Source: a virus
Direction: 5' to 3' (one strand)
Length of the DNA: 29,197 nucleotides
Virus record (IMG/VR): IMGVR_UViG_3300040960_001342
Coordinates: 1-29,197 of that record
Part shown: in pieces, positions 992-27,868 of the stretch
How the letters are laid out: each line of letters opens with the position of its first letter
Numbering within the stretch: the stretch's first letter is position 1
Translations under genes and position numbers: made by a program
The notes under the pieces: model-generated
Told to the model about the DNA's origin: nothing
Databases searched by the model: none
Seen by the model: the letters and a program-made list of their open reading frames with translations, nothing else

Positions 992-1932
992 ACGTTATTT
1001 CTTTTTAAAAATTCAGTTGTATCTTTTGTTAAATGTAATGCTGAGTTGAATGGTTTGTGGTCGTAACTTTCATTTATTCTTTCATATCCAATTAGATAGT
1101 AATTATCATATTCTTTAGTACGTTGAAACTCAATCTCACTAATCATATCTTCATGTAGTTTTTCACCATCTTTTATTGGAACTTTATGAAAATCAATATT
1201 ATCTTTACCAAGTGATTTAGCTATTGCTTTTGCCAAATCAATAATCTTTAATGATTCTATTTTAGGGATTGCAATTTTACCATGTGAATCTTTGTGGAAG
1301 TATGCCCATTCAATTAAATCAATCGCCTGGTCTAATGTAAGTAAAAATCTAGTCATACCAAAATCTGTAATTGGTAATGATGTTGCACCATCTTTTATCT
1401 TTTTTGTAAATACTGGAATTATAGAACCCGTAGAGTTTAATACATTACCATACCTAGCCATTACCACTTTGATATCAGATTGTTGTTTTGCAAAGTTTAC
1501 ATACAATTGTTCGGCAATTGCCTTCGACATTCCATATACATTTACAGGTTTACACGCTTTATCAGTTGATATAAAAACCAATGTTTTTATTTTGTGATTA
1601 CATTCTTGTATTGCATCTATTAAATTCTGATGTCCTATAATATTTGTTTGTACGGATTCGTAACTATTATCTTGACATACCCAGACTGTTTTAACTGCAG
1701 CTGTATTGATAACAACAGTGGGTTTAAACTCATATAAGTTTCTTACTAAAGATGGTTTATCTTTAACATCACCTAACCGATATGTAACATTCGGATAATT
1801 TACTCGCATTGCCTCTTGTTTATGTTCACTACGAGATAATACCATAATTTCATTATCGTTATAGTATCTATCAGTTAACGTACTACCTAAAGCACCTGTA
1901 CCACCGATTACTAATATTCTTTCGTTTTTCAT
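985..1932 (-). CDS. capE: CapE/WbjB-like UDP-GlcNAc 4,6-dehydratase (5-inverting)
   Basis: A 315-residue extended short-chain dehydrogenase of the FlaA1/CapE polysaccharide-biosynthesis family. It shows the NAD(P)-binding turn GGTGALG (residues 10-16), an STDKA motif (122-126) and the catalytic Y133-x3-K137 (YGMSK). The stretch NTAAVKTV followed by SVQTNIIG is typical of the family. Family members dehydrate UDP-GlcNAc to a 4-keto-6-deoxy sugar; the CapE branch also inverts C5, and its product is the substrate of CapF. The assignment to CapE rather than PseB/FlaA1 rests mainly on the directly downstream capF, which overlaps it by 7 bases. Its own ATG overlaps the stop of the upstream HAD gene by 4 bases. 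Length is close to bacterial CapE (about 340). Cytosolic; product feeds a surface glycan or a glycan attached to a phage component. Confidence 0.85.
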   Translation of the reverse strand: MKNERILVIGGTGALGSTLTDRYYNDNEIMVLSRSEHKQEAMRVNYPNVTYRLGDVKDKPSLVRNLYEFKPTVVINTAAVKTVWVCQDNSYESVQTNIIGHQNLIDAIQECNHKIKTLVFISTDKACKPVNVYGMSKAIAEQLYVNFAKQQSDIKVVMARYGNVLNSTGSIIPVFTKKIKDGATSLPITDFGMTRFLLTLDQAIDLIEWAYFHKDSHGKIAIPKIESLKIIDLAKAIAKSLGKDNIDFHKVPIKDGEKLHEDMISEIEFQRTKEYDNYYLIGYERINESYDHKPFNSALHLTKDTTEFLKRNNVW

Positions 1933-2225
1933 ATCTCTTCTATTCGTTTTGTTTTATCACAAATTAATAAATCATATGATGGTTTTTCACCAACACTTAA
2001 ATGATGATACTTACACCCCCAATCATCTAATTGAGATTTCGTTAGTTCGTAATAATCTATACCACTATATGACCCCCTTGCAGTCCAATATGTAATTTCA
2101 TTTCCAGCATCATATAGTTTATTTATTTTATCTATATTTTCAATCAATGGTGTAGGATTCTTATAGCCCAATCTATCACCATTGTGAATGCATATTGTTT
2201 CATCTATATCTACAAATATTCTCAT
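1929..2225 (-). CDS. Small HAD-superfamily phosphatase of capsule-cluster type
   Basis: A compact 98-residue HAD-fold protein. The nucleophile motif is D6-I-D8-E-T10, the second motif is the Thr of YWTARG (T48), K81 is the likely motif III lysine, and the acidic motif IV is YDLLICD (D85/D90). There is no cap domain. Such mini-HAD proteins occur in capsule and LPS clusters next to nucleotidyl transferases and glycosyltransferases, where they are thought to remove a phosphate from a sugar phosphate or related intermediate. Substrate cannot be read from the sequence. It overlaps both neighbours by 4 bases (ATP-grasp upstream, capE downstream), so it belongs to the same translationally coupled sugar operon. 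Confidence 0.75.
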   Translation of the reverse strand: MRIFVDIDETICIHNGDRLGYKNPTPLIENIDKINKLYDAGNEITYWTARGSYSGIDYYELTKSQLDDWGCKYHHLSVGEKPSYDLLICDKTKRIEEI

Positions 2226-3142
2226 ACTACTATTTCATTAAAATATCTTACCACAGTTATTTCCTTTGGAGAATTAATATGCACATCTTTACCATTTACT
2301 ATTTGTAGTATTATTTCTACAAAGTTAACACCTGCTAATCTACTAAAATAAGTACCACCGCCTAATCGTGGGTTTACTTCTATAAATTTAGGATTTCCGT
2401 TTTCATCTTCTTTTAGCTGAATACATACTGGCCCTTTTATATTTAAATGGTGTGCCAAATCAGTACACATTTTTTCTATGGTCTTATTTATTATAACCTT
2501 ACCCTTTACAGAGATTCCGGCTTTAACTTGCAATCGTTCTCTTACAACACAACTTAATACGTTACAATCTAAATCAGATAATAAATCTACTGTATATTCT
2601 TTCCCTGGCAGATACGATTGAAATATATAATCTCCAGTTATTGATTCTAAATCACGATTTGATTTACATAAATGAATACCTCTACTACCACTCCCAACTT
2701 TTGGTTTGGCAATTACAGGTAAATTTAAATCATAACCATTTAAACTAGTCTTAGGAAGAACATCACTAAACTTAGAAACACAAAATTCATAAAACCTCAT
2801 TTTATTTTGGCAGTTCAGAATTGTATCGTAATCGGACATGAAAACCGAAATACCCATAGATTCTAATTCACTTTTATGTTTAGAAAAATGTTTAATATCA
2901 CTATCACCTGTTGGTAAAATTAAAGTAACTTTTTCTTTTTTGATAATATCAAACACAACATCCCAATATTCATCTGATTCTGAGTTTGGTACTGTGTAAC
3001 TCACATCTGATAATAACCCACCCACAGCTAACGGGTCTAAATCAATAGAAACAATACGGCATTTATAAGGTATACCCCTAATAGATTTAATTACACCCAC
3101 CGCAGCAGGGCCACCCGAACAAGTTAATAGTATCGTATTCAT
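2222..3142 (-). CDS. ATP-grasp ligase, carbamoyl-phosphate-synthase-like
   Basis: A 306-residue ATP-grasp enzyme. The N-terminal 100 residues form a Rossmann-like pre-ATP-grasp domain (TCSGGPAAVGVIKS, then LPTGDSD). The ATP-binding lysine segment is IAKPKVGSGSRG (144-155), the hinge is QSYLPGKEYTVD, and the metal-binding C-terminal motif is FIEVNPRLGGG (E255, N257). ATP-grasp ligases activate a carboxylate as acyl phosphate and join it to an amine or other nucleophile. In a sugar cluster this suggests amidation or amino-acylation of a sugar or carrier, but the substrate is unknown. The start overlaps the stop of the glycosyltransferase gene upstream, and the end overlaps the HAD gene by 4 bases. 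The superfamily call is firm; the reaction is not. Confidence 0.8.
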   Translation of the reverse strand: MNTILLTCSGGPAAVGVIKSIRGIPYKCRIVSIDLDPLAVGGLLSDVSYTVPNSESDEYWDVVFDIIKKEKVTLILPTGDSDIKHFSKHKSELESMGISVFMSDYDTILNCQNKMRFYEFCVSKFSDVLPKTSLNGYDLNLPVIAKPKVGSGSRGIHLCKSNRDLESITGDYIFQSYLPGKEYTVDLLSDLDCNVLSCVVRERLQVKAGISVKGKVIINKTIEKMCTDLAHHLNIKGPVCIQLKEDENGNPKFIEVNPRLGGGTYFSRLAGVNFVEIILQIVNGKDVHINSPKEITVVRYFNEIVV

Positions 3143-4068
3143 TATGTAAGATATATTATTTTATCAACAAAATTACCAGTCTTAAACGGGTCTTTTCTTG
3201 GTTTACCATTTAATCTCTCACCATGTAGAGGTCCATAGAATTTATTACCTAATACAAACGTATCTGAATACTTAGCGCACCATAAAGTCATACCACTTTC
3301 ATTACCAACATTTACTATAGCGTTACAACGAAGATACATTTGTTGTCTGATGTTAAGATTCATTGGTTTTACTGATGTATAATTTTTTATAAAATTCAAA
3401 TTAGTTTCTTCAATTGGAGCTTCTCCATAATAAAACCAATGGATATCACCATATTCTTTTATTTTATCTACCAACAAGTGAGTATCTGCGGTTGACCCAT
3501 ATGTTGATGATACACCAATATACCCATAATTTTTGATATTTCCAAGCAATTCTTTACCAAAATTACTTTCTTCTTCGGAAAAGTATATATCTGGCGTTGT
3601 ATCTGATAATTCTTCATTATTAAATTGCCAAAACTTCATCATTTGTGTTGTTAATGGAATCTTTGAATTTTCAGAATCAAATATCCTATAATGGTCGTGG
3701 AAAACCTCACCATCCACATAATCCACAAACTCATCTACATATGGGTTGTTTTTAAAAATATCTTCAGTAACTTTAGTAGCATCATATAAACCATACCCCC
3801 AATTCTGCATCATATCACCAAAGATATCTTTTAACATTTTAGAAGATGGTACATATACTTTACAATTTGGATATTTTGATTTTAGTATTCTTGGTATGCC
3901 TGATATGATACACCAATCTCCAATACCATGACAGGTTCTCATAACTAAGAACTCACCAGCTTCTAAGTATTCATCAGGTATATACATTGGATTTTTTTTA
4001 TCAAACCCAACTAAATCTACTTCACCTGCGCTACTTAATTTGTTACTATTAATTCTAAAAAAATGCAT
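3142..4068 (-). CDS. GT9/heptosyltransferase-like glycosyltransferase
   Basis: A 308-residue protein with a GT-B-type start: a strand followed by GIGDWCIISGIPRILKSKYP-like residues (48-67). This matches the G-x-G-D-x4-P/R-x-L signature of family 9 glycosyltransferases (ADP-heptose:LPS heptosyltransferases). The second half has a strand-rich Rossmann segment (YGYIGVSSTYGS, then DIHWFYYG) and a nucleotide-sugar-site-like stretch VNVGNESGMTLWCAKYSD. In family 9 the equivalent region, a Gly- and Ser-rich loop before a helix, binds the nucleotide sugar. The family is normally involved in LPS core synthesis. Here it sits inside a phage sugar operon, with 1 base between it and the fusion gene upstream. 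Donor and acceptor are unknown. Confidence 0.7.
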   Translation of the reverse strand: MHFFRINSNKLSSAGEVDLVGFDKKNPMYIPDEYLEAGEFLVMRTCHGIGDWCIISGIPRILKSKYPNCKVYVPSSKMLKDIFGDMMQNWGYGLYDATKVTEDIFKNNPYVDEFVDYVDGEVFHDHYRIFDSENSKIPLTTQMMKFWQFNNEELSDTTPDIYFSEEESNFGKELLGNIKNYGYIGVSSTYGSTADTHLLVDKIKEYGDIHWFYYGEAPIEETNLNFIKNYTSVKPMNLNIRQQMYLRCNAIVNVGNESGMTLWCAKYSDTFVLGNKFYGPLHGERLNGKPRKDPFKTGNFVDKIIYLT

Positions 4069-4069
4069 A

Positions 4070-5812
4070 TTAGCTCTTTTTTATATAATTGCACAACTCA
4101 TTTGCAGTATCAACTGCGGTTGATATTTTACCTGAAAATATTAGATATTTACTTTTAGATTCTTTATCAACTATACTAGGTCTTGCATCATCATAATCTC
4201 TATTAGATAATACAGTTCTGATTGTAAACATAGAACCAATGTGTTCTACACCATCAACATTCGTAAAAAACTTACTTAACGTTTCTTTAAATTTACTCCA
4301 TTTTGTAATTGATGGATTTTTTACAATACCTTTATTTAATAACCCTTCTAACTTTTTAGGTATCTCAGGCATCTTACCTGTATTTGTGTAATGGATTGCA
4401 TGAACTACATTACCAACAACATGATACTCGGTATCAGAATATGGGTCTATACACATAAATGGGCCATCCATAATTACAATACCCATCCCCTTATATTTTT
4501 CAGGCAACTTAATCAATGGTTTTTCACAAATCTCAAATTGATAATCTGATTGTTTCTCTGAATTCTGATTTAAATTAGAATATGTTGCATTTACTACATA
4601 ATCATAATCCAACTCATCTATTCGTTTGAATTCTTGATTATACAATATTTTTATGTTAGAATCATTCAATCTAGCTTTACACATATCATATAACTTTTTA
4701 GGGTCAAACAACCCCTCATCAACTTTATATAACTTTTCTATATGTGTATCTACTAGCAAATCACTCACAACTTCTTCATAGTTCAAACCCACATTATCCA
4801 TAAAAGATTCATAATCATTTGATGTTACTTTTGAACCAAATGATGCAATTGCATAATGTTGATTTGATGATTCTAATTCACATGGATATTCTTCCAAAAA
4901 TGTTTCAGTACCATGTTTCGCAGATACAGCAGTATCAACACTTCTTGGATAATGATATCCCCTATGTAATCTATATTGGTTTATAGAACTCGCGTTTTGT
5001 AAAATATCATTATTCTTTTCAAATAGTGTTACATCAAAGTCATCATCCAATTTAAGTGCTGATGTAACTCCAAAAATACCCGCTCCAATAACAGCTACTT
5101 TTGGTTTATGTTCATTCAACCTATCCAATATAGAATTTACATCTAATGCCATTTGGTTGTTTGATTCAAATGATACTTTACCATCAAATACCTGATGAAA
5201 CATCGATGTTAGTAAATTTAGATTTGTTTTAAAATCAAAAGTATATCCACCACCAAATGCTTGTTTAGTTTTCTTTTTACTAACTCTATCATAGTAGAAT
5301 TCAGTATCACCAATACTAAACTCCTTTTCATTTACTCTATTAGTTTTAATATGAATATCACCTGATAAATCATATCCTAAGTGTAGTGCTATATATAAAT
5401 CGTGATACGATAAATTATTAAAAATATTATCGTTAAACGAGCCATACTTTCTCCACTCAAATCTAAGAACTTTAGGGTCATATTGTGCAATCCACCTTAA
5501 TGTTGGATGATACAAAAACACATCATCAACATATAATTTTACATTGTGTTTTTTTGATAAATCTACTAACTCTTTAGATTGTTCATATGTTGGAGTCATT
5601 GGTTTTTCAATAAAAACATTTATACCCCTTTGAATAAAATCTTTTGCTAATTGATAGTGAGATTCGGTTGAAGATGCAACGACTACCCAATCGATATCAT
5701 ATGTAATATCCATTTCCCTACCAGTGAAGAATTTAATATCACAAAATGATTGAAGTGTTGAGTGTATTTTTTTACCAAAATACCCCTTACCAATTATACC
5801 TACTTTATACAT
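4070..5812 (-). CDS. Gfo/Idh/MocA oxidoreductase fused to FAD-dependent (DAO-type) oxidoreductase
   Basis: A 580-residue two-domain protein. Residues 1 to about 225 are a Gfo/Idh/MocA dehydrogenase: dinucleotide turn VGIIGKGYFG (4-13), the family EKP motif (69-71), and SYHDLYIA (135-142) holding the usual catalytic H/D region. A second nucleotide-binding turn, VIGAGIFGVTSA (241-252), ends in an acidic strand (LFEK), opening an FAD-binding DAO-fold domain to residue 580. The two families separately oxidise or reduce sugars (NAD(P)) and amines or hydroxy acids (FAD). A single chain could carry two consecutive steps on one sugar substrate. No frameshift or stop separates the parts. Neighbours are a GT2 upstream (3-base gap) and the GT9-like gene downstream. 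The sugar substrate is inferred only from context. Confidence 0.8.
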   Translation of the reverse strand: MYKVGIIGKGYFGKKIHSTLQSFCDIKFFTGREMDITYDIDWVVVASSTESHYQLAKDFIQRGINVFIEKPMTPTYEQSKELVDLSKKHNVKLYVDDVFLYHPTLRWIAQYDPKVLRFEWRKYGSFNDNIFNNLSYHDLYIALHLGYDLSGDIHIKTNRVNEKEFSIGDTEFYYDRVSKKKTKQAFGGGYTFDFKTNLNLLTSMFHQVFDGKVSFESNNQMALDVNSILDRLNEHKPKVAVIGAGIFGVTSALKLDDDFDVTLFEKNNDILQNASSINQYRLHRGYHYPRSVDTAVSAKHGTETFLEEYPCELESSNQHYAIASFGSKVTSNDYESFMDNVGLNYEEVVSDLLVDTHIEKLYKVDEGLFDPKKLYDMCKARLNDSNIKILYNQEFKRIDELDYDYVVNATYSNLNQNSEKQSDYQFEICEKPLIKLPEKYKGMGIVIMDGPFMCIDPYSDTEYHVVGNVVHAIHYTNTGKMPEIPKKLEGLLNKGIVKNPSITKWSKFKETLSKFFTNVDGVEHIGSMFTIRTVLSNRDYDDARPSIVDKESKSKYLIFSGKISTAVDTANELCNYIKKS

Positions 5813-5815
5813 AAC

Positions 5816-6436
5816 TTATAACGTATCGTAATACTCGTTTTGTTTTTCTTGTCTTTCGATTGTTTTTGGATGATGTAGTGCTAACTCTTCTTGAAGTGGT
5901 AAATGTGATATGGTTTTGAATCCATCTAATTGTTCGTGCACTTTATTAATCCATTTGATATTATCTGAGTTTTTATACAATCTCCATTGCATATCCGGCC
6001 AGTTTACCCAACCATCTGAATTTACGTTCCAACCCCACTTTTGAATATGCTCATCAGTAAGTCCTGCGACCGTATTTACTCTTGGAACTAAGATTACATC
6101 TACATCATTCAATTCTAATATACCATGTATATTTTCCATCAACCCAATATCGGGTAGTTCATCTGCATCAATCTGAAAAATGTAATCACCACTACACAAT
6201 GAATTTAGTTTATTTTTCATATTACCAAAATGGCCATCGAATTCATTTGGATACCATTGGAACTCTGCGTTTACAGAATGACTTCTTAGGTACTCTTCTA
6301 CTGCTTTACTACCATTTTTTGAATCAAATATTATTACAATCTCATCATTAGATTGTTTGTGTTTTAATAAAAATGATACTAATCTTTGAATTTCTACGTG
6401 TTCATTACAAACTGGAATTGCGTAACTAATCTTCAT
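5816..6436 (-). CDS. Family 2 glycosyltransferase (GT-A)
   Basis: A 206-residue GT2-type transferase. The N-terminus is ISYAIPVCNE, as in most GT2 enzymes, and the metal/nucleotide-binding DxD is in FQIDADELPD (D90, D92). A later WRLYKN segment and the C-terminal LHHPKT fit the acceptor half. It is shorter than typical cellular GT2 enzymes (250-350), as is common for phage and capsule variants without a membrane anchor. It should transfer a sugar from a nucleotide donor in the cytosol. It begins directly after the hypothetical gene upstream (1-base gap) and is followed by the oxidoreductase fusion. Donor unknown. Confidence 0.8.
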   Translation of the reverse strand: MKISYAIPVCNEHVEIQRLVSFLLKHKQSNDEIVIIFDSKNGSKAVEEYLRSHSVNAEFQWYPNEFDGHFGNMKNKLNSLCSGDYIFQIDADELPDIGLMENIHGILELNDVDVILVPRVNTVAGLTDEHIQKWGWNVNSDGWVNWPDMQWRLYKNSDNIKWINKVHEQLDGFKTISHLPLQEELALHHPKTIERQEKQNEYYDTL

Positions 6437-6437
6437 T

Positions 6438-6953
6438 TTACTTTACTTTGTTTTGTTCTTGCTGCTCTCGTTCTCTTGCTTCAGCCTCTAATTGTTTTCT
6501 ACGTTCATCTGCAGATGGAATCTTATCAAATTTACCCCAATCATAGTTTACTGCCTGAACTGATTTAATATCCAATAGATTGAATGTACGATACGCAGCC
6601 TTCAGTTGTTTTTCGGTTTTAATCTCTGATGTATAAAACACCTTAGATGCTTCATTGATTTGAATTTTAGCCAAATCTAATCGTTTAACCTTTGAAGATT
6701 TTGATATCACCTCATTATAGATTTCTGCTATTTCTAATAATTTACCAGGAGATACTGCATCTAAGGATAACCCATGTAACTTACCTTCAATTGTATTAGG
6801 CCATTTTGGCTGTAGTACAAATACGAGATACAACTTTGTACCTGTATCTTTTTTGTACTTAATTTTAACCACCATACCCCGCTCCATCTTACTTTTCGTA
6901 ATTGGAGTGGGGTCTGATGTTTTTCTTAGATGTGTATTGTAGTATCCTGGCAT
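6438..6953 (-). CDS. Conserved-looking hypothetical phage protein, possible SH3-like barrel
   Basis: A 171-residue protein I do not recognise with certainty. The middle (about 27-65) is rich in beta strands: GMVVKIKYKK, then KLYLVFVLQPKWP, then GKLHGLSLD. This pattern resembles small SH3-like barrels that open many phage structural and nucleic-acid proteins. The last 30 residues are highly charged (ADERRKQLEAEAREREQQEQ), suggesting an exposed helix or coiled coil. There is no signal peptide or membrane segment. It lies between two sugar-transfer genes, overlapping the GT4 stop by 1 base, so it is co-expressed with them. It could be a structural protein that is glycosylated, a helper of the transferases, or unrelated cargo; nothing in the sequence decides this. 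Confidence 0.6.
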   Translation of the reverse strand: MPGYYNTHLRKTSDPTPITKSKMERGMVVKIKYKKDTGTKLYLVFVLQPKWPNTIEGKLHGLSLDAVSPGKLLEIAEIYNEVISKSSKVKRLDLAKIQINEASKVFYTSEIKTEKQLKAAYRTFNLLDIKSVQAVNYDWGKFDKIPSADERRKQLEAEAREREQQEQNKVK

Positions 6954-8293
6954 TACTTAACCTTTTTTAATTTAGGTAATTTAACCTCAGGTTTCTCTTC
7001 TTTATTAACCTTCTTTAACTTTGGTAGTTTTAAACCAACCTGTTGTGGTTGTTCTTTGATATCCATCGTACTCTCATCAAACAATACACCAATACGTTCT
7101 ATCATTTTATCAAATGAGAAGTTATCTTTACTATACTTACGATGTTTACGAGATTTCTCTAAATACTTTTTATAGTTATCTACCATATCTCTCATAATAG
7201 AACCACCTTGATTGTAATCTGCAGTAAACCACTCACCCTCTTTTACTAAGAATTTATCTGCTGCTGATTTGTGAACCTTTTCCAACTTACCATTAATAAC
7301 TGAAACGTATTCTGGATTAATGAAATCCATATGTCCACTCCACCCACTAACAATCATTGGTTTACCACTAATAGTTGCTTCCAATAAAGGTCTACCAAAA
7401 CCTTCACCTCTTGTAAATGATACATGAGCCTTAACCTTTGGGTGATTATATAATGCGTTCATCTCCCAATCACTTAAATCTGAATGTAGTAAGTAAATAT
7501 TAGGTAACATTTTACCACCCACACTATCTTTTATTTGTTCGATGATTTTTCTCAACTTAACTCTATCTACTAATGATGTAGAACCTGCTGATGTTTTAAG
7601 AATTAGGGCTGGTTGTTTTTTCTTATTTTTAAATGCTTGTAAAAATGTCCAAATTAAACCACTCACATTTTTTCTATCTTGTTGAAAATCCCCCTTTAAC
7701 CAATGTCCCACAAATAAGAACGCAAAATCTTCGTTTATATTTCTTAGTACGTTATTAATACGTTCTTCAGATGGTGCTTTCTCATTATATACTTCTAAAT
7801 CAATACCCTCAAATAGAACCTCAACTGGTACATTACATTTCAGTTGGCCCATTAATTGATTTGTTTTCTCATCCTTCTTATCATATACAGAACTCATAAT
7901 CACTTGCTTTGTAAATTCAGATGATACCAATACCTTATTCATACGATTGATACCTTCTAAACACTCAGGTGGCATAATTGTAGTTTCTACACCAGCAGTT
8001 AAGCCAATACTGTACTTACCAACCGGCTGAAACTCATTAGGTACTGTGATTTGAATCCACACATCTGGTTGAGTTTCCATCTTCTCAGTAATGATTCTAC
8101 TTAACAAATCATCATCTTCATCTTCTTTGAGAGCATCCATAGCCGTCTGTCCCCATCTCTGAGAAAGGATTCGGATATCCCAATTTGGTTTTGATTCAAT
8201 CAAACCTCTTACAAAATCCCTACTTCGTGCACCATATCCACTTCGAGTTGAGATAGGACAACTCACTACACATAATTTTTTTATATCTTCCAT
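6953..8293 (-). CDS. Family 4-type (GT-B) glycosyltransferase with Lys-rich repeat tail
   Basis: A 446-residue GT-B enzyme. It starts with CVVSCPISTRSGYGARSRDF, a donor-side glycine-rich loop typical of GT4 proteins. The C-terminal half has the E-x7-E region in SFTRGEGFGRPLLEATISGK (the two glutamates bracket the donor site), followed by PMIVSGWSGHMDFI. The last 30 residues carry two copies of LPKLKKV separated by an acidic linker, a basic tail not needed for GT-B catalysis. The start overlaps the end of the upstream GT4 gene by 13 bases, so two GT4 enzymes are made together. It likely adds a sugar to a glycan or protein in the cytosol. Donor and acceptor unknown. Confidence 0.85.
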   Translation of the reverse strand: MEDIKKLCVVSCPISTRSGYGARSRDFVRGLIESKPNWDIRILSQRWGQTAMDALKEDEDDDLLSRIITEKMETQPDVWIQITVPNEFQPVGKYSIGLTAGVETTIMPPECLEGINRMNKVLVSSEFTKQVIMSSVYDKKDEKTNQLMGQLKCNVPVEVLFEGIDLEVYNEKAPSEERINNVLRNINEDFAFLFVGHWLKGDFQQDRKNVSGLIWTFLQAFKNKKKQPALILKTSAGSTSLVDRVKLRKIIEQIKDSVGGKMLPNIYLLHSDLSDWEMNALYNHPKVKAHVSFTRGEGFGRPLLEATISGKPMIVSGWSGHMDFINPEYVSVINGKLEKVHKSAADKFLVKEGEWFTADYNQGGSIMRDMVDNYKKYLEKSRKHRKYSKDNFSFDKMIERIGVLFDESTMDIKEQPQQVGLKLPKLKKVNKEEKPEVKLPKLKKVK

Positions 8294-9669
8294 AATACTA
8301 CTTCATTTTTTGGTTGCCATTTATCAAACACACCATCCATTGAATCAATGAATCGTTGTCCCATATGTCTTGCACTCATTCCACTTTCTACTGAATTCAT
8401 CCACTCAGAACCTTCTAACCCACATTCAGTTCTACGTTCAGATGGAGTATCATACCATTGTCTTAATGCCTTAGCAGCATCTTCATAAGAACATCTATCA
8501 TCAAAAATGTATGGAGTTACAGGTGAACCTTGTAATGAACGATTGGATGGCCAAATTGGGTTTACCCAACTACCCCAACTAAGATTCTCAGGTAGTTTCT
8601 TACGATTGTGAAGTGAACCTAGCTCAACATATTGGTCTGCAGTAATATACTTACCATCGATAGTAAAGTTACATTGGTCTTGCAATCCACCCGTTACGTT
8701 TACTACGATTGGTGTACCTGCTTTTACTGATTCACAAGTTGCTAATCCAAACCCTTCGTTTGATGCCATATTGATTGTAACATCTGCAAGGTTGTATAGA
8801 ACATTTAAATCTTCAGTTGAGAACTGAGAGTTTGTGAATTGTACATCATAATCAGGACAAACGTTCTTAACCACTTCTGGCAAATCAGTACCATTCGGGT
8901 CTACTTGCTGAGTATGGAATAGAAGAACTACATCTTTTGACTGTTCTTTGGTAAGTGTATCACAAAACTCTTTATATGCTAATACAACATCACCTGGATT
9001 CTTTCTACGAATGTTTCGGTTGTTATAAAGAACTACAAACTTCTTATCACCAATACCCAATTTGGATTTCATATCAATTACCTTCTGATACTCATTTGAA
9101 TCAGATGGAATTGGTTTAAACTTTTCAGATACACCATGTGGTACATATTGAATCTGCCAATCTTCCATTGGCATTCCAAATTTATCCATCACTCTCGTAT
9201 TGATACCATAGGTTTGTTTAGAAATACCCATTAATAAATCACAACTTCCATAGAATGGTGCGTTCCATTGTGGGTCTGGTAAATCATCCCAAATGTTATA
9301 ATAGAAGATAGGAATGTGTCTACGGATTTCATCTTCCATAGCATATAACCAATCCCAAAAACGAGGGTCGGTGAAGTGTAGAATTGCATCTGGGTTCTCA
9401 GTAGTTATTAATTGTCTAATTAAGTCCTGATTACCATACCCACTCATTGGAATGATACGAACATTTGCGTTATCAATACCCGCCTCTTCATTTACTGAAT
9501 CTGATACATCGAAGAATTTACCCTCATCTGGATGTTTAACTGCTGCACCTACCTGAATCCAATCGTATTTATGTGAGGTATGTAGTACAATCTCCTTTGA
9601 CATGGTTGCAATACCACTATGCAACCTTAAATCATCGGATAATAATAGAATCTTTTTCTTTTTACTCAT
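8281..9669 (-). CDS. Family 4-type (GT-B) glycosyltransferase, first gene of sugar operon
   Basis: A 462-residue GT-B glycosyltransferase. The N-terminus (ILLLSDDLRLHSGIATMSKE) has the glycine-containing acceptor loop. A central segment VLYNNRNIRRKNPGDVVLAY marks the start of the donor domain. NMASNEGFGLATCESVKAGTPIVV is the E-x7-E donor motif. It is distantly similar to the next gene, suggesting an old duplication. The ATG follows a 50-base AT-rich leader after the promoter at 9721-9751, with AAGG about 10 bases upstream. As first gene after a promoter it probably heads the whole sugar operon down to capF. A DNA-modifying role is possible for phage GT4 enzymes, but the context favours glycan assembly. 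Confidence 0.85.
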   Translation of the reverse strand: MSKKKKILLLSDDLRLHSGIATMSKEIVLHTSHKYDWIQVGAAVKHPDEGKFFDVSDSVNEEAGIDNANVRIIPMSGYGNQDLIRQLITTENPDAILHFTDPRFWDWLYAMEDEIRRHIPIFYYNIWDDLPDPQWNAPFYGSCDLLMGISKQTYGINTRVMDKFGMPMEDWQIQYVPHGVSEKFKPIPSDSNEYQKVIDMKSKLGIGDKKFVVLYNNRNIRRKNPGDVVLAYKEFCDTLTKEQSKDVVLLFHTQQVDPNGTDLPEVVKNVCPDYDVQFTNSQFSTEDLNVLYNLADVTINMASNEGFGLATCESVKAGTPIVVNVTGGLQDQCNFTIDGKYITADQYVELGSLHNRKKLPENLSWGSWVNPIWPSNRSLQGSPVTPYIFDDRCSYEDAAKALRQWYDTPSERRTECGLEGSEWMNSVESGMSARHMGQRFIDSMDGVFDKWQPKNEVVLWKI

Positions 9670-9714: not shown

Positions 9715-10197
9715 TCAACTCAAATATACAACTTTTTTTCCAAATCTCAAAAGTAATTTTTCAAAATATTTTTGTTCTGATGGTTTAATTCCACCAAAGT
9801 AGATAATCTTATCGGAATGCTTTACAATGCAATCATACTGGTGTAACCTTTGTGTTGGGTGAAATGGTTTATCATAATACTCATCACTCATTCCACTATA
9901 TAAATTTCTACCAGTATGTGCTGGATTGTACTCCGTATATCTAAAACCAAACTCTAAAGCATATTTTCTAACCCACTTCTCACATCCATCTTTGTTACCT
10001 CTCGTTATGATATTAACATCAGTACCTAACTTTTGTTTGATGTTGAATAGAAAATCCCTAATAGTTCTAACACTATCATATTTAGGTGAACCTATAATTG
10101 CTATGTTCATATCATCATCATTTCCATTTGATATTCTTTTATATGATACGCGAGTTTTATTTGAACTACTTTTGAAATTTCTCACGTAATTTTTCAT
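9715..10197 (-). CDS. SLOG-fold (YspA/DprA-like) protein
   Basis: A 160-residue protein with a 29-residue charged N-terminal extension followed by a Rossmannoid domain: MNIAIIGSPKYDS (30-42), then NIITRGNKDGCEKWVRKYALEFGF and a final SDKIIYFGG. Strand-G-S-R-x start plus a GxxxGxE/D-like loop fit the SLOG superfamily, which includes the single-domain YspA-like proteins common in phages and thought to bind nucleotides or nucleotide-sugar ligands. No enzymatic residues can be named. The start at 10197 overlaps the glucosaminidase end by 32 bases; the ATG at 10110, at the beginning of the conserved domain, is a serious alternative and would leave a 55-base gap. The 3' end contains the promoter for the next operon. 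Confidence 0.65.
   Translation of the reverse strand: MKNYVRNFKSSSNKTRVSYKRISNGNDDDMNIAIIGSPKYDSVRTIRDFLFNIKQKLGTDVNIITRGNKDGCEKWVRKYALEFGFRYTEYNPAHTGRNLYSGMSDEYYDKPFHPTQRLHQYDCIVKHSDKIIYFGGIKPSEQKYFEKLLLRFGKKVVYLS
9721..9751 (-). promoter_or_regulatory. Bacteroidota-type promoter for the sugar operon
   Basis: On the minus strand TTTG (9751-9748) is followed by 19 bases and TATATTTG (9728-9721), matching the -33 TTTG / -7 TAnnTTTG consensus of Bacteroidota. It lies over the last codons and stop of the SLOG gene and drives the GT4 gene starting at 9669 with a leader of about 45-50 bases. Confidence 0.7.
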
Positions 10198-11703: not shown

Positions 11704-11735
11704 CAAATATACGAATTTTATTTGGATAATCCAAA
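11704..11735 (-). promoter_or_regulatory. Bacteroidota-type promoter for the Fe-S nuclease
   Basis: Minus-strand TTTG (11735-11732), a 20-base spacer, then TATATTTG (11711-11704). Only TAAT separates the -7 element from the ATG at 11699, so the transcript start should fall at or just before the start codon. Confidence 0.7.
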
Positions 11736-15167: not shown

Positions 15168-16385
15168 TTATCTACCAACTTCTTTTAAGTACGTTTCTTT
15201 CATTTTATCCCAACTCATACCAATCGCATCAATATAGAACAAATTCTCAGGTTTAATTCTACCTTCAGAATGTAGTTTGGTGTATCGATTGATTGCTTTC
15301 TTCTTCCACCACTTACTAATGTAATCTACACCATCTACGAACTTTTGTTTCATCTTCAATTCATCTTCTCCGATTTCATCTCTTAGAAACTCAGGTCCGT
15401 TCTCATACATCATAGCGAGATATACACCCCTCTTAAAACCATGATGGTATGTGGATTGTTTGATACCACATTCTTTGAAAATCTGCCCCAATATCTTTTG
15501 TTTGATACCACTTACAGGTCCACTAGCACCTTCACCAGTTCCCATATTCTGGCCGTTTCGGATTCGTTCGTTAGTGATAGCTTCTTGATACCACTCTGAA
15601 CGATTTTCTTTTAACCATTGGTGCCACGGGTCGTAGAACTTATCATCAGGTTTGATAGAAATCTTTCCTGCTGATTCACCCAATGTTTTGAAATGAGGTA
15701 TTCCATTGTATTGAGAGTGGATTCCGTATAAAGATGTAGTACCAACTCCTATAAGAGTCTGTCCATACTTCTCTTTCCAAAACTCTCTTACCTCAGGCAC
15801 CGTAGTCATCATAGCAATTAACTTACCACCTAAAAAGTTATATCCTAATGGTTGGGTACATACAATTGTTGATGCGATTGTAGTATGATTGAGTTTTCCT
15901 TTTTTGAACTTATCATCCTTAGTCCACCCAATGTAGTTATCTCTAACTGCCATTGATGTAACATCTGATGCCAATGATATTTGACCTAAGAGCTTACCAC
16001 TCTTTCTATCCTTTACATTGATTTTAACATTACGACCAGGATTAGCAACAAAGGACATTGTATGAATCATTTTTCGGATATGAGTCCACTTACCAGCCTC
16101 TTTGGTATCCTCTAATATTTCAACATAAGGTTCTAACTCTTCAATCTCTTTGATAGTTTGTTCCAAATTATTAATATCAGTAGGAGCCCATTGAATATCG
16201 TACATAGATGCAATTTGAGATTTATCTCTAATCATATTAGGTTCTTGCAATTCTACCCACTTCTTATATAAAGTCTGCTCTTCAACACTCATAGAAGAAA
16301 GATAGTCCATATTTTCGATTAACAATCTTTTTTGTGTTTCGAAGTCAAACTCCGGCTTTGCTGGCTCTGTATCCCAAAAATTCAT
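15168..16385 (-). CDS. DUF4338/DruA-like protein
   Basis: A 405-residue protein. The core (about 135-205) reads GQISLASDVTSMAVRDNYIGWT, then a basic loop, LNHTTIASTIVCTQPLGYN and LGGKLIAMM. This matches the DUF4338 family, in which a strand with a D/R-D-x-x-IG element precedes an N-x-T/R and a GGK/ALL element. DUF4338 includes DruA of the Druantia anti-phage system; stand-alone phage versions exist with unknown function. The N-terminal 110 residues are mostly helical. The gene lies 9 bases after the sliding clamp and shows AAGGA about 8 bases before its ATG. A DNA-binding or nuclease-like role is plausible, but catalytic residues cannot be named. The call rests on recognition of the motif block. 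Confidence 0.6.
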   Translation of the reverse strand: MNFWDTEPAKPEFDFETQKRLLIENMDYLSSMSVEEQTLYKKWVELQEPNMIRDKSQIASMYDIQWAPTDINNLEQTIKEIEELEPYVEILEDTKEAGKWTHIRKMIHTMSFVANPGRNVKINVKDRKSGKLLGQISLASDVTSMAVRDNYIGWTKDDKFKKGKLNHTTIASTIVCTQPLGYNFLGGKLIAMMTTVPEVREFWKEKYGQTLIGVGTTSLYGIHSQYNGIPHFKTLGESAGKISIKPDDKFYDPWHQWLKENRSEWYQEAITNERIRNGQNMGTGEGASGPVSGIKQKILGQIFKECGIKQSTYHHGFKRGVYLAMMYENGPEFLRDEIGEDELKMKQKFVDGVDYISKWWKKKAINRYTKLHSEGRIKPENLFYIDAIGMSWDKMKETYLKEVGR

Positions 16386-17121: not shown

Positions 17122-17153
17122 CAAATATACAAAAACTTTTTGAACTTTCCAAA
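17122..17153 (-). promoter_or_regulatory. Bacteroidota-type promoter for the clamp operon
   Basis: Minus strand: TTTG (17153-17150), 20-base spacer, TATATTTG (17129-17122). The -33 element abuts the polymerase stop at 17154. The spacer closely resembles that of the promoter at 21056-21087 (27 of 32 positions identical over the whole block). The leader to the clamp ATG is about 30 bases. Confidence 0.75.
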
Positions 17154-19688: not shown

Positions 19689-21032
19689 TTAATCAACCCA
19701 CTCATAACCAGATTTAGTCAATCTGATATTAGGATGTGTTCTTAATCTATTTCGGTAAATATTAAATGGAATACCCTTCCCCCAATTCAAATAAGCTACT
19801 AAATTAGTTTTAGAAACACTTTTTACCTTTTTTATATATTCTACAATTTTTTTATAACCTTCAGCATCTTCACCAACCATTTTTAATTTAGATTCTGCTT
19901 CAACAAAGTTTGGTGCATAATGTTTTTTAACGATAGCTTCATAGGAGTTTTCTTCACCCAATATTCTACATTTCTCTGAATATTCGTTTCTGAAAGATGT
20001 ATCATCTAATACTTTGTTAATCATAGTTTGAAATTCAGCATCAGTTTTGAAGTATAAACCAGCATCTTTACTATATAGTGAGTAGTAATCAGCATCATAG
20101 AAAACATATGGAACACCAACTGCCATACCATCTGCTGCTGAGTTAGCCCAACCTGTATGATGTGATTGACCACAAACACCTACCCAACATTTTGATAGTT
20201 CAGTAAAATAACCCTGTCTATCAAATTTATCATTGTAAATATATTCTTTATCTTCTGTATCTGCCAACGGCACCCATACCTTAAAATCTTTACGTGTCTC
20301 CCAAAGTTTATCCATCTGAAGTAAGAACCAATCATAACTTTTATATGAGTTAGCTCTATGATTGAAAACTATAATCTTTGGGTCAGTTTGTGGTTCTTTT
20401 CTTGGACCGGGTACATTATCCCACCCACGCGGCATTGCTCGTACAATATCTTTAAGTTTCTCAATATCAGAATCAGGTAAACACAATTTAGCATTTTCAA
20501 TAATCGCATCTTTAACTGCTTCTGAAGTTACTCCACAAGTGTTCATAGATAACAACCCAGCATAATGATGTCTTAACAAACTAGCATCATATTTTGTTGT
20601 TTTTGGAATTTCAATATATGGACTATATCCAAAGAACACAGGTCTCTGATTTGTTGTATTGTAAAAGTGATTCTCTAAAAGTAGAGTATGTTCAGGTAAG
20701 TAACTATATACAAAATCCCAATCGTTTGTTTTATAATCAGTTACCTTTTTTATAGCAAATGTATCAAAGTGTTGACGCATTTCATTTGGATATGTAGGCC
20801 ATTTAAACAAAACCTGTTCAACACTATCATATTGAAAACCAGGCATTATTTCTGGAGTCAAAATAGTAAAGTGTATATCAGGTCTAAGTTTTGTCAAATG
20901 TTTTAGAATATTTGACATAATGATGTAAAAACTATCCTTATAAAAATCTTTTTGAAATGTGATATTCGGATATATCAAACATCTATATTTGTATTCTTTA
21001 GATGCTGCTGGGTCTGTAAAAAACTTATTCAT
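19689..21032 (-). CDS. GT-B glycosyltransferase with extra C-terminal domain, next to polymerase
   Basis: A 447-residue protein. Residues 1-380 show a GT-B layout: an acceptor domain with LIYPNITFQ and YSYLPEHTLL, a linker with KIIVFNHRANSYKSYDW opening the donor domain, then GQSHHTGWANSAADGMAVGVPYVFYD, the donor-site loop and helix. About 50 further residues (395-447) are basic and aromatic (KTNLVAYLNWGKGIPFNIYR...IRLTKSGYEWVD), a separate small domain resembling a winged helix or DNA-contact module. It sits between the Mom-like genes and DNA polymerase, away from the sugar cluster, behind its own promoter. By position it could glycosylate DNA, as the T4 enzymes do; a glycan role cannot be ruled out. 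Confidence 0.65.
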   Translation of the reverse strand: MNKFFTDPAASKEYKYRCLIYPNITFQKDFYKDSFYIIMSNILKHLTKLRPDIHFTILTPEIMPGFQYDSVEQVLFKWPTYPNEMRQHFDTFAIKKVTDYKTNDWDFVYSYLPEHTLLLENHFYNTTNQRPVFFGYSPYIEIPKTTKYDASLLRHHYAGLLSMNTCGVTSEAVKDAIIENAKLCLPDSDIEKLKDIVRAMPRGWDNVPGPRKEPQTDPKIIVFNHRANSYKSYDWFLLQMDKLWETRKDFKVWVPLADTEDKEYIYNDKFDRQGYFTELSKCWVGVCGQSHHTGWANSAADGMAVGVPYVFYDADYYSLYSKDAGLYFKTDAEFQTMINKVLDDTSFRNEYSEKCRILGEENSYEAIVKKHYAPNFVEAESKLKMVGEDAEGYKKIVEYIKKVKSVSKTNLVAYLNWGKGIPFNIYRNRLRTHPNIRLTKSGYEWVD

Positions 21033-21055: not shown

Positions 21056-21087
21056 CAAATATACAAAATATTTTTGAAACTACCAAA
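21056..21087 (-). promoter_or_regulatory. Bacteroidota-type promoter for glycosyltransferase-polymerase unit
   Basis: Minus strand: TTTG (21087-21084), 20 bases, TATATTTG (21063-21056), overlapping the stop of the Mom-like gene. The leader to the ATG at 21032 is about 20 bases, AT-rich, without a clear Shine-Dalgarno sequence. Confidence 0.75.
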
Positions 21088-21883
21088 AGTTTATTTCATT
21101 ACTTTCTTCTGGTGGATATGTATCGTGTCTGATAACATCCGTATTGTAATCTCTTGTTGATTTGGGATATGATTGAATCTCATGCTTCAACCTTTTCATC
21201 AAATCTTTTTTCTCTTTTTTGTTTTGTGGTAATAATTGAATATATCTATGCTTTGGTGGTTCTTCTCTTCTCCAAAACTCTTTGTACCCATCCTTACCGA
21301 TTTCTCTTTTTAAGTGTTCTAAGTTACCACTACCCCAATTGTTAAATACAGTTCTACTATGTATCCAATTATGTGGGTCTTTTGTTAGTGAGATACCCCA
21401 GTTTGGCATCAATGCGATATCAGTATTCAACCCTTGATATATCCAGTTGGTTGCCTGATAGATACCACCTAAATGTTCTTGCCCATTATCAGCATATGAA
21501 AGTAGAACTTTGATGTTCTTATCATTTTCTTTAATCCACTTAAATGTTTTAGATAATGCGTTTGATTCGATATTAGAACCATACCCATCATCAACATACA
21601 ATCTAGTCAACTCTAAGATATTATCTTTGGTTAATCCTTCACATACTGAAGTAGGTGCTTTTGCTCCGACTGGGAATCCGTAGATAGCACATCCAATAAG
21701 TTGTTGTTGATTACCGAATACATCTTTTTCATCATTACGATAATAGATACCCAATGCGTATCTACAAGATGTCCATGCGTGAGTATAGTGTTTCTTTACG
21801 ATAATATCCTTAGCAATAGATTTTGCTATGGGAGCAACACTAACTCTACTTACATCACAATATTCTTTACCTTCTACTTTCAA
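21080..21883 (-). CDS. Mom-like DNA-modification acyltransferase, copy 1
   Basis: A 267-residue protein of the Mu Mom type (GNAT fold). The pattern is KDIIVKKHYTHAW (25-37), LIGCAIYG (62-69), ILELTRLYVDDGYGSNIES (89-107), then KVLLSYADNGQEHLGG and IYQATNWIYQG (125-151). In Mom relatives these segments hold the cofactor and substrate sites; Mu Mom converts adenine in DNA to N6-carbamoylmethyl-adenine and makes it resistant to restriction. The C-terminal 100 residues are basic and mark this copy. It overlaps copy 2 by 17 bases, and the first 150 residues of the two are alignable without gaps (76 identical by hand count). Function as a Mom-type modifier is inferred from the family. Confidence 0.75.
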   Translation of the reverse strand: MKVEGKEYCDVSRVSVAPIAKSIAKDIIVKKHYTHAWTSCRYALGIYYRNDEKDVFGNQQQLIGCAIYGFPVGAKAPTSVCEGLTKDNILELTRLYVDDGYGSNIESNALSKTFKWIKENDKNIKVLLSYADNGQEHLGGIYQATNWIYQGLNTDIALMPNWGISLTKDPHNWIHSRTVFNNWGSGNLEHLKREIGKDGYKEFWRREEPPKHRYIQLLPQNKKEKKDLMKRLKHEIQSYPKSTRDYNTDVIRHDTYPPEESNEINFW

Positions 21884-22625
21884 TTGGTTCTAATTTTCTA
21901 ATTTCTAATTCTACTTCGTTTTCTGATTTTGGGTATGGTAAGATGGGGTGTTTCAAAGTTTTAAGTAACTTCCTTCTCTCACCACCTTTAGAAAGAATGT
22001 AAACATATCGGTGTTTACGTGGTTCTTTACGAATCCAAAATGGTTTATCAATTTGTTCTTGGATTTTCTTTGGGTCGTTTGTTCCATAATATGGAAATAT
22101 TGTTCTCCCATGTTGCCACTCACCATCTTCACTAAACTTAAAACTCCAACTATCATTATATCGTAATGAATCACCTTGATACAGCCAATTTGTTGCTTGG
22201 TAAATAGTTCCGTTGTGTCCCTCTTTAGGGTCTGAGTATGATATCAGTGCTTTGATATGTGGAGCGTTCTCCCTTAACCATTCAAAAGTCTTACCTAAGA
22301 ACCAACTCTCTATGTTTGAACCATACCCATCAAATACAAATACTCTAACTAATTCTAAAACTTCCGTTCTATCTAACATATCAGTTATGGATTGTCCACT
22401 CAATCTTCCGATTGGGTCTCCATAACACGCAACACCAATAAGCTTTTCTGAAGTATTAAAGAATTGATGTGAATCATCTTCAACATATAAACCAATAGCG
22501 TAAGATACCTTAGTCCATAAATGAGAATAATGATTCTTTATCACTATATCTTTTGCTACGGATTTAGAAATCTTTCTTATTGATATTTTTGATGTATCAC
22601 AATAATTCTTTCCTACTTCCTTCAT
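21867..22625 (-). CDS. Mom-like DNA-modification acyltransferase, copy 2
   Basis: A 252-residue paralogue of the next gene. It shares KDIVIKNHYSHLW, YGSNIES (101-107), KALISYSDPKEGHNGT and IYQATNWLYQG (141-151). The central part is therefore conserved, while residues 50-85 and the C-terminal third differ. Both copies keep the HY..H.WT element, the E-L-x-R strand and the SY-x-D loop, so neither looks decayed. It starts at the stop of the HTH gene (TAATG overlap). Two active modifiers could differ in sequence specificity or in the acyl donor, or form a heterodimer. Confidence 0.75.
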   Translation of the reverse strand: MKEVGKNYCDTSKISIRKISKSVAKDIVIKNHYSHLWTKVSYAIGLYVEDDSHQFFNTSEKLIGVACYGDPIGRLSGQSITDMLDRTEVLELVRVFVFDGYGSNIESWFLGKTFEWLRENAPHIKALISYSDPKEGHNGTIYQATNWLYQGDSLRYNDSWSFKFSEDGEWQHGRTIFPYYGTNDPKKIQEQIDKPFWIRKEPRKHRYVYILSKGGERRKLLKTLKHPILPYPKSENEVELEIRKLEPIESRR

Positions 22626-22843
22626 TACTGATATTTATCGAAATCACCTATTAACAAATGTGTCCAAGTTTCATTCCTAACAATTCTACGAATATTAGCA
22701 GGAGAAACACCATTGTTCCTAGCCAACACTCTTATATTTCTATGGCCTACTTTCCATAGTTTTCTTATGGCGTTCACCTGCTCTTCAGTCAGTTTATGTG
22801 CTGGATGTGATTCCCCTCTTAATGCCATCCTATATCTCTTCAT
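22625..22843 (-). CDS. Stand-alone helix-turn-helix protein, homing-endonuclease-tail-like
   Basis: A 72-residue basic protein. The region RGESHPAHKLTEEQVNAIRKLW followed by VLARNNGVSPANIRRIVRNETWTHL is the tail seen on many phage HNH homing endonucleases: a GESHP-x-x-KLTEE motif leading into a resolvase-like helix-turn-helix. Here no HNH nuclease half is present in any frame upstream; the gene begins with MKRYRMALRG. It may be a remnant of a homing endonuclease or a repurposed DNA-binding protein. It overlaps the MazG-like gene by 14 bases and touches the start of a Mom-like gene. A regulator of the modification genes is a possible role; this is inference. Confidence 0.65.
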   Translation of the reverse strand: MKRYRMALRGESHPAHKLTEEQVNAIRKLWKVGHRNIRVLARNNGVSPANIRRIVRNETWTHLLIGDFDKYQ

Positions 22844-23249
22844 CTAATGGAATTTGTAATTGACCATTATCTGATAGATATTTGGATACATTTGGTGGTG
22901 AGTAGTTAGGGCCTTTGAGTACCTTACCATCTTCACGATATAAGGGTTTACCATCTGGGCCCAGTTTACTCATATTCGAACGATGTACCTCATCAAAGAT
23001 ATCTTCGATTACATCCTGCATTCCATGTGATATCATAGTACCCAATAGGATATATAATTGGTCTGCGAGTGCATCTGCTACTTCGACAAGGTTTCCATCT
23101 TTACACGCATCAAAATACTCTATCAATTCTTCTTTACCTAACTTATACCTCAGTACATAATCATCTTCTGAGATTAAGGTAGGTTTAAAGTTTCTTGTTG
23201 AGTTATATGCTGTTTGAAAATCTAATAACTGTTTTAATTGTTCTTTCAT
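22830..23249 (-). CDS. MazG-like nucleotide pyrophosphohydrolase
   Basis: A 139-residue all-alpha NTP pyrophosphohydrolase of the MazG/Pra-PH type. The metal-binding pattern is KEELIEYFDACKDGNLVEVADALADQLYIL (about 36-65): E-x2-E on one helix and E-x2-D on the next. The C-terminal DEVHRSNMSKLGPDGKPLYREDGKVLKGPNY is the typical phage tail loop of this group. These enzymes split (d)NTPs or ppGpp into monophosphate and pyrophosphate, keeping non-canonical or unwanted nucleotides out of the pool. It leads the unit with the HTH and Mom-like genes. The ATG is 5 bases after the -7 element, so the mRNA is probably leaderless. Confidence 0.8.
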   Translation of the reverse strand: MKEQLKQLLDFQTAYNSTRNFKPTLISEDDYVLRYKLGKEELIEYFDACKDGNLVEVADALADQLYILLGTMISHGMQDVIEDIFDEVHRSNMSKLGPDGKPLYREDGKVLKGPNYSPPNVSKYLSDNGQLQIPLDEEI

Positions 23250-23254
23250 AACTA

Positions 23255-23286
23255 CTAATATACGAATAATTTTTTAATTATCCAAA
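23255..23286 (-). promoter_or_regulatory. Bacteroidota-type promoter for the MazG/Mom unit
   Basis: Minus strand: TTTG (23286-23283), 20 bases, TATATTAG (23262-23255), one base off TATATTTG. Only TAGTT separates it from the MazG ATG at 23249. The -33 side (ATTTGGATAAT) resembles that of the nuclease promoter at 11704-11735. Confidence 0.65.
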
Positions 23287-26471: not shown

Positions 26472-27830
26472 CTAAACATCAATATCACCCTTCATTTCAT
26501 TATATTTTTGTAACAAATTCTTTCTTACTAAACTCTCCCCCTTTGACATATCATTTGTGGTCTTTTTACCATCAATGGAATCATCGGAATATATGTTAAT
26601 TCTACCATTACTCATATTCGCCTTAGATGGTAGAGTCATCCCATCTGGTCCAAATCTATTTTTGATAACGTGCCAACGACCAGTTCCTGCAAGTTTATCT
26701 TCAATTTTTCTACTTAGAGAAACCACAAAATCTGCTGTCATTAATTTAGAGAATGAACCTGCGATAGAAGTACCAGTAATCACATCATCATTTGCACCAC
26801 TACGATTGATTTGGGATGCTGTGTATAGTGGACATTCATATTCACCAGCAATACCCCTCAAACCCTCTACAATCTCTTCTAACTCTTCGTGTCGTTCTTT
26901 TCTACTATTACCCTTTAACAAATCAGCGTAATCCACAATAATCACATCAGGATTCTTACCTTGTAACTTTAATTTATCTAAGGATGCTCTCATTGCGTTT
27001 AATCCTGCAGATTTAGTAGGCCAATATTTCAAAATAAGTTCACCTTTTAGGTTATTAACTTGATTTGAAACATCTTCTATATTGTATTTTAGATTTGGAA
27101 CTGCAGTACCTGTTAGAACTGCATCATATCTTTGACCAACATAACCTTCATTCAACTCCAATGTATAGTGAACTACCGTCTTACCTAATTTAGCAGCTAC
27201 CATACCCACATTTACTAATGCCCAAGATTTACCAATTCCTGGAGGTGCTGCAAACATTATCAACTCACCTTTACCAAAACCACCATCTGCTAATTCATCA
27301 ATTACATCCCATCCAGTTGGAATCACATCTCTAATAGTAGATTCATATCGTTCTTTAATCTGTAATTTGTATTCGTGTCCAATATCAGTATCCTGTCCGG
27401 CTTTCATTGCATCATCAATTTTTGATTTAATGATATCAAACTTACCTTCTTCTAATAATCCAACTGATTCTAATATTGCGTTTTTAAAGGTTTGGTTTTT
27501 ACAGAACTCTAAAGTTTTTTCTTTTACATAATCCAAATCATCAGATTCTAACCCATTCCAAACCTGCTTTAGATTATCTACAATGGATTGTTTGAGAACA
27601 TCTCTCTCAATCTTAGATACCTCTACTTTAAATACATCTAATGTTGGTAACTCACCATAACCATCAAAGTGGGAAAGAATCTTCTTTACAATCCACTCAT
27701 TTGATTCAGAATCAAAATATTCCGGTTTGATAATATCATACACCATCTGAAGAAATATTCTATCAGAGATTAGCGCTGAAATTATCTTAATCTGAAATGA
27801 TGTTCCAAACTTATTTCCAAACTTATCCAT
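26472..27830 (-). CDS. 41: Replicative DNA helicase, DnaB/T4 gp41-like
   Basis: A 452-residue hexameric helicase starting at the ATG at 27830 (MDKFGNKFG). An upstream TTG at 27839 extends the frame by three residues but lies inside the -7 promoter element, so I reject it. The N-terminal 150 residues are the helical collar. The RecA-type motor has Walker A APPGIGKS (195-202, K201), catalytic E in HYTLELNEGY, Walker B VIIVDYADL (296-304), and Q in YTASQINRSG. It unwinds the lagging-strand template and recruits primase. The ATG lies 6 bases after the -7 element, so the mRNA would be leaderless or nearly so. Confidence 0.92.
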   Translation of the reverse strand: MDKFGNKFGTSFQIKIISALISDRIFLQMVYDIIKPEYFDSESNEWIVKKILSHFDGYGELPTLDVFKVEVSKIERDVLKQSIVDNLKQVWNGLESDDLDYVKEKTLEFCKNQTFKNAILESVGLLEEGKFDIIKSKIDDAMKAGQDTDIGHEYKLQIKERYESTIRDVIPTGWDVIDELADGGFGKGELIMFAAPPGIGKSWALVNVGMVAAKLGKTVVHYTLELNEGYVGQRYDAVLTGTAVPNLKYNIEDVSNQVNNLKGELILKYWPTKSAGLNAMRASLDKLKLQGKNPDVIIVDYADLLKGNSRKERHEELEEIVEGLRGIAGEYECPLYTASQINRSGANDDVITGTSIAGSFSKLMTADFVVSLSRKIEDKLAGTGRWHVIKNRFGPDGMTLPSKANMSNGRINIYSDDSIDGKKTTNDMSKGESLVRKNLLQKYNEMKGDIDV

Positions 27831-27836
27831 AGGATA

Positions 27837-27868
27837 CAAATATACAAATAAAATCTTAAATAAACAAA
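27837..27868 (-). promoter_or_regulatory. Bacteroidota-type promoter for helicase/reductase unit
   Basis: Minus strand: TTTG (27868-27865), 20 bases, TATATTTG (27844-27837). The helicase ATG is 6 bases downstream. The -33 element falls in the 3' arm of the hairpin at 27862-27887. Confidence 0.75.

Follow-up and report, generated by a model that had tools for sequence, protein, structure and literature searches.

In phage Mu, the DNA-modification enzyme Mom transfers a group of the carbamoylmethyl type to N6 of DNA adenines. Its gene is present there in a single copy, together with that of the zinc-finger regulator Com, a translational activator whose gene overlaps mom. Work on Mom treats it as a rare enzyme that Mu-like phages possess singly, and we found no report of paired Moms in the open-access literature. 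The chemistry and sequence context of Mu Mom are covered in PMC7824862; the same source treats jumbo-phage fusions of Mom with a nuclease (Mom-REase), a coupling interpreted as a mark of self combined with attack on DNA that lacks it. For a Mom protein of PHROG 1384, a dimeric form is reported from both modelling and crystallography (PMC13232217). Here we describe a marine bacterial virus with two Mom-family genes in tandem, which we call MomA and MomB, and argue that they are probably two active, anciently diverged enzymes that hypermodify phage DNA on non-identical targets.

The window analyzed is a linear IMG/VR record of 29.2 kb (29,197 nt), and all gene counts given for it refer to that fragment. 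An earlier note had placed the two genes in a T4-like replication region, and this description holds: the window encodes a DNA polymerase, clamp, clamp loader, helicase, and NrdA, and a gp23-type capsid is present on long relatives of the contig. The genes of the putative operon follow each other on the minus strand in the order MazG-like, HTH, MomA, and MomB, with successive overlaps of 14, 1, and 17 nt, the last of which is the overlap of tandem reading frames reported in that note. The features of the locus are as follows.

23255..23286, minus strand: promoter-like site TTTG-N20-TATATTAG, Bacteroidota-type with one mismatch, 6 nt before the ATG of the MazG-like gene
22830..23249, minus strand: MazG-like nucleotide pyrophosphohydrolase, presumably the first gene of the transcript (Pfam PRA-PH, 7e-13; PHROG 671, 7e-37)
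22625..22843, minus strand: small HTH protein, 72 aa, its stop overlapping the MomA start by 1 nt (PHROG and HNH-endonuclease matches, synteny)
21867..22625, minus strand: MomA, 252 aa, ATG start; GNAT-fold protein of the Mom family (Pfam PF25680, 1.6e-45; PDB 8BV8; model pLDDT 86)
21080..21883, minus strand: MomB, 267 aa, TTG start, 17-nt overlap with MomA; Mom family (Pfam PF25680, 1.2e-44; PDB 8BV8; model pLDDT 87)
21056..21087, minus strand: promoter-like site TTTG-N20-TATATTTG, exact Bacteroidota-type, overlapping the MomB stop and preceding the next gene
19689..21032, minus strand: glycosyltransferase-1-like protein, 447 aa (Pfam Glycos_transf_1, 0.0025, below the family cut-off)

The TTG start of MomB is backed by orthologs that have ATG at that position. 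The upstream promoter-like site would presumably drive MazG, HTH, MomA, and MomB as one transcript, and the site at the MomB stop would begin a separate transcript for the gene downstream. Elsewhere in the window, a DruA-like protein is encoded between the clamp and clamp-loader genes (15168-16385, minus strand; Pfam DruA, 2.8e-20; PADLOC DruA1, 1.5e-17) and is conserved in relatives, and positions 2-9669 (minus strand) hold a run of sugar or surface-polysaccharide-type genes that includes Polysacc_synt_2, an epimerase, an ATP-grasp/PylC-like protein, an oxidoreductase, and several glycosyltransferases.

The earlier note had recognized both products as Mom/GNAT proteins and proposed profile searches and superposition on Mu Mom as checks, and both checks confirm the assignment. 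MomA and MomB score 156 and 153 bits, respectively, against PF25680 (cut-off, 27.1), each over profile positions 2 to 202 of 202; both also match PHROG 1384 (Mom-like), and the Mu Mom structure 8BV8 is the only PDB sequence match for either protein. On 8BV8, the AlphaFold model of MomA reached a Z score of 20.1 (187 aligned residues, 3.3 Å) and that of MomB a Z score of 21.1 (182 residues, 3.0 Å), and the next-best PDB chains, which are other GNAT structures, reached a Z score of ∼12. All of the Mom-type motif blocks quoted in the note were found in both proteins.

Conservation of individual residues is consistent with catalytic competence of the pair. The protein deposited as 8BV8 is S124A, which the entry title calls an inactive mutant; this serine is the last residue of N-S-E-S in Mu Mom, where MomA and MomB have G-S-N-I-E-S, and its equivalent in both proteins, S107, is kept in 100% of 50 MomA and 56 MomB variants, as are the residues of the H-Y, E-L-R, and N-E-S motifs. 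Both proteins retain the equivalents of Mu H58/Y59, E108, R111, N121, E123, and S124, and the same catalytic set is found in MomB as in MomA, whose correspondences to Mu are H32/Y33 to H58/Y59, E91 to E108, R94 to R111, N104 to N121, S107 to S124, D132 to D149, H172 to H183, and R206/Y207 to R216/Y217. The equivalents of Mu L109, D116, S146, G156, Y159, H183, R216, and Y217 vary little or not at all across both sets of variants. In 19 of the 56 MomB variants (e.g., L058, L070, L090, L100, L105, and L119), asparagine replaces the aspartate aligned to Mu D149, often together with lysine for glutamine in the YQATNW motif (position 143), so activity of all MomB members is not certain; the window MomB retains aspartate at this position.

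Over their full lengths, MomA and MomB align with 107 of 250 identities (43%; E value, 4e-74). The hand-counted 76 identities of the gap-free N-terminal alignment in the earlier note were reproduced: the alignment runs without gaps through column 151, with 75 of 150 columns identical (76 when TTG is read as Met), compared to a mean of 9.1 and a maximum of 19 in a shuffled-sequence control. Among the orthologs, MomA and MomB each have a fixed but different residue at 28 positions, in addition to 6 lineage-specific gap columns, and the fixed differences that adjoin catalytic residues are at positions 31, 34, 96, 98, 109, 131, and 133. Neither gene contains internal stops, and dN/dS values of 0.05 to 0.18 for both in the comparisons made indicate strong purifying selection, in agreement with the absence of decay noted earlier; together with the retained catalytic residues, these values rule out that the second copy is decayed or dead. 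In a phylogeny of 77 representative Moms, the MomA orthologs group with the Mom of a TMED198 metagenome contig (support, 100/100) and the MomB orthologs with 13 Moms from other virus contigs (support, 98/92), which places MomB as sister to Moms that other viruses have singly and puts MomA with a different Mom. By this phylogeny, the MomA and MomB lineages separated before the other viruses with related Moms diverged; the pair is therefore not a young duplication, and a recent local tandem duplication is ruled out, since Moms of other viruses branch after the A/B split.

Both genes are widely maintained in relatives. Among 97 distinct IMG/VR contigs, 70 have both MomA and MomB, and 10 have MomB without MomA despite at least 1.5 kb of upstream sequence; MomA without MomB was found in none of those with at least 1.5 kb of downstream sequence. 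The losses of MomA show that some lineages can do without it. The two genes overlap in 33 contigs, and at the other extreme more than 500 nt separate them in 4. Distances among MomA proteins and among MomB proteins are correlated at only 0.52, with some pairs clearly discordant, and for this reason MomA and MomB probably recombine separately.

In the wider related group, whole-record profile searches showed that many contigs encode two or three Moms. A 113-kb contig encodes three: an A-like gene (58% to MomA), a B-like gene (53% to MomB) at a distance of 41 kb from it, and one of a third type elsewhere, indicating that non-redundant sets of Moms recur. A 9.9-kb contig (L134:181-1738 and L134:3998-4675) has three Moms, each from a different subfamily, with one tandem pair among them, and a 25-kb contig has a further, independent pair of unlike Moms in tandem, with overlapping genes (L226:2151-3516), and a third Mom elsewhere. 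In cultured phages, tblastn with MomA hit 311 records and with MomB 226 records, at one place each, and a third-type Mom query hit 254 places in 253 records, so at most one cultured record has two third-type places. Profile searches found one Mom each in Mu, P12002L, PX29, and BarnCat. The contrast between a single Mom in cultured phages and two or three in the related contigs is a lead, as tblastn may miss distant copies.

The earlier note had also proposed a compact module that includes a MazG-like enzyme and an HTH protein, of which the HTH part stands and the MazG part does not. Of 105 loci (some of which share a contig), 102 have the HTH gene immediately before the first Mom, and it is kept upstream also where MomA is missing, but MazG was detected in no more than 4 of the 25 loci taken as representatives, a sporadic presence that rules it out as a core member and makes it an optional neighbor by gene content. 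No such HTH gene was found beside the Moms of other virus groups, so the linkage appears specific to this clade; the HTH protein has no significant similarity to the one encoded beside Mom in Microbacterium phage BarnCat, and it is not a homolog of that protein by this measure. It is similar to the portion of phage HNH homing endonucleases that binds DNA and is not a Com zinc finger, having no cysteine at all, and no Com-like zinc finger was evident in the small open reading frames between MomA and MomB of relatives. At the DNA level, no relatives among cultured phages were found beyond short MazG matches.

Promoters of the form TTTG-N20-TATATTTG are typical of Bacteroidota. Five exact sites of this type occur in the window (9721-9751, 11704-11735, 17122-17153, 21056-21087, and 27837-27868, all on the minus strand, which is the coding strand), compared to 0.06 expected. 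Four of them precede a gene start by at most 52 nt; the fifth (27837-27868) reaches 3 nt into the helicase open reading frame (26472-27839) as called from its TTG start, and the true start of this frame may lie further in. Because the promoter sites are of a type typical for Bacteroidota, the host is probably a species of this phylum.

In relatives, the region directly behind MomB is a hypervariable slot. In 52 of the 60 contigs in which this region is resolved, MomB is separated from the glycosyltransferase-like gene or the DNA polymerase by at least one gene, and these slot genes fall into 17 unrelated clusters. Many relatives have a nuclease-like gene adjoining Mom there, and several of these resemble nucleases of the restriction type, including GmrSD_N/DUF262 with HNH, a GHKL ATPase that ends in a PD-(D/E)XK-like part, a ParB-like protein whose core is REase-like, GIY-YIG-like, and other types, many of these assignments being motif readings rather than profile hits (slot genes include L036:7696-9228, L031:3229-4749, L023:7656-8837, L063:6952-8472, L060:6873-8147, and others). 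The window itself has only the 447-aa glycosyltransferase-like gene in this slot and no nuclease; homologs with 26 to 32% identity occupy the same place in relatives, usually behind the variable slot gene. Sequence searches found no solved-structure relatives for this protein (with a profile of 16 sequences) or for two slot proteins. One protein of slot set A6 (probably L061:1207-2016) matches a TET-associated glycosyltransferase (Pfam TAGT, 1.8e-23). Behind the Moms of other virus groups, a by-eye reading of the sequences showed mostly ordinary phage-like genes and no comparable nuclease slot.

We propose that MomA and MomB would each hypermodify phage DNA during replication, most likely at N6 of adenine by analogy with Mu. 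Their targets would differ, most probably in sequence context, a difference in specificity that we infer from the divergence of the two sequences, and the enzymes together would cover more restriction sites than one alone and thereby block host restriction. One transcript would yield MomA, MomB, and the HTH protein, which may regulate the enzymes or help to target them, and in relatives the variable nuclease-like gene behind MomB could cut DNA that lacks the mark while sparing that of the phage.

The fixed differences next to catalytic motifs (31 and 34 at H32-Y33, 109 near S107, and 131 and 133 around D132), and the MomB subclade with asparagine at the D149 equivalent and often lysine for glutamine at 143, would also fit enzymes that make different bases, one the Mu-type carbamoylmethyl-adenine and the other a product of another donor or base; we consider this unlikely, however, given that the core catalytic residues of the window MomA and MomB are identical and that both models fit 8BV8 equally well. 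A heterodimer, with one subunit for catalysis and the other for DNA recognition, is less probable again. It would accord with the overlap of the genes, the failure to find MomA without MomB, and the dimeric form of the PHROG 1384 Mom (PMC13232217), but each protein keeps a full catalytic set, A-like and B-like genes are far apart in one relative (41 kb), and an obligate partnership is made less likely by the 10 contigs with MomB alone and by a distance correlation of only 0.52, with strongly discordant pairs. Redundancy or gene dosage, with copies turning over and no division of labor, could explain why some relatives lack MomA, but it is very improbable in light of the 43% identity, the 28 fixed differences, the long separate histories, and the purifying selection on both.

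If MomA and MomB are, as we favor, two active enzymes with non-identical targets, the pair may explain how such phages survive varied Bacteroidota restriction systems, and diverged Moms would be natural material on what sets the sequence and chemical specificity of this family. Conserved, diverged Mom pairs or triples in abundant marine phages would mean that hypermodification is a diversified repertoire. A broader scenario, which we put forward tentatively and regard as possible rather than probable, is that widespread T4-like Bacteroidota phages write marks with two or three non-redundant Moms and the HTH protein while a swappable nuclease destroys unmarked DNA. If true, such combinatorial DNA marking would amount to a phage-borne, restriction-modification-like weapon with interchangeable restriction parts, in which the swappable nuclease slot connects self-marking with attack.

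Compared to known systems, the locus resembles that of Mu (8BV8, PF25680, PHROG 1384) in family, GNAT-type fold, catalytic S124, and the motifs H-Y, E-L-R, N-E-S, S-x-A/S-D, Y-Q-A, and C-terminal YPK, but with only 25% identity, and where Mu has one Mom and Com, the window has two diverged Moms and an HTH gene, and no Com-like partner was seen. The nearest cultured DNA polymerase, with 48.5% identity over its full length, is that of Microcystis phage Mel-JY01 (PP395634), in which a whole-genome profile search found no Mom. The nearest cultured relative of the Moms is that of Polaribacter phage P12002L (NC_028924; 47% to MomA and 42% to MomB), a marine Bacteroidota phage, although its genome of 48.7 kb has one Mom by profile search, adjoining a DNA methyltransferase. 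Finally, whereas the nuclease of the jumbo-phage Mom-REase proteins is fused to Mom, in the relatives of this virus a nuclease-like gene stands separately, behind the Mom pair, and is of many unrelated kinds.
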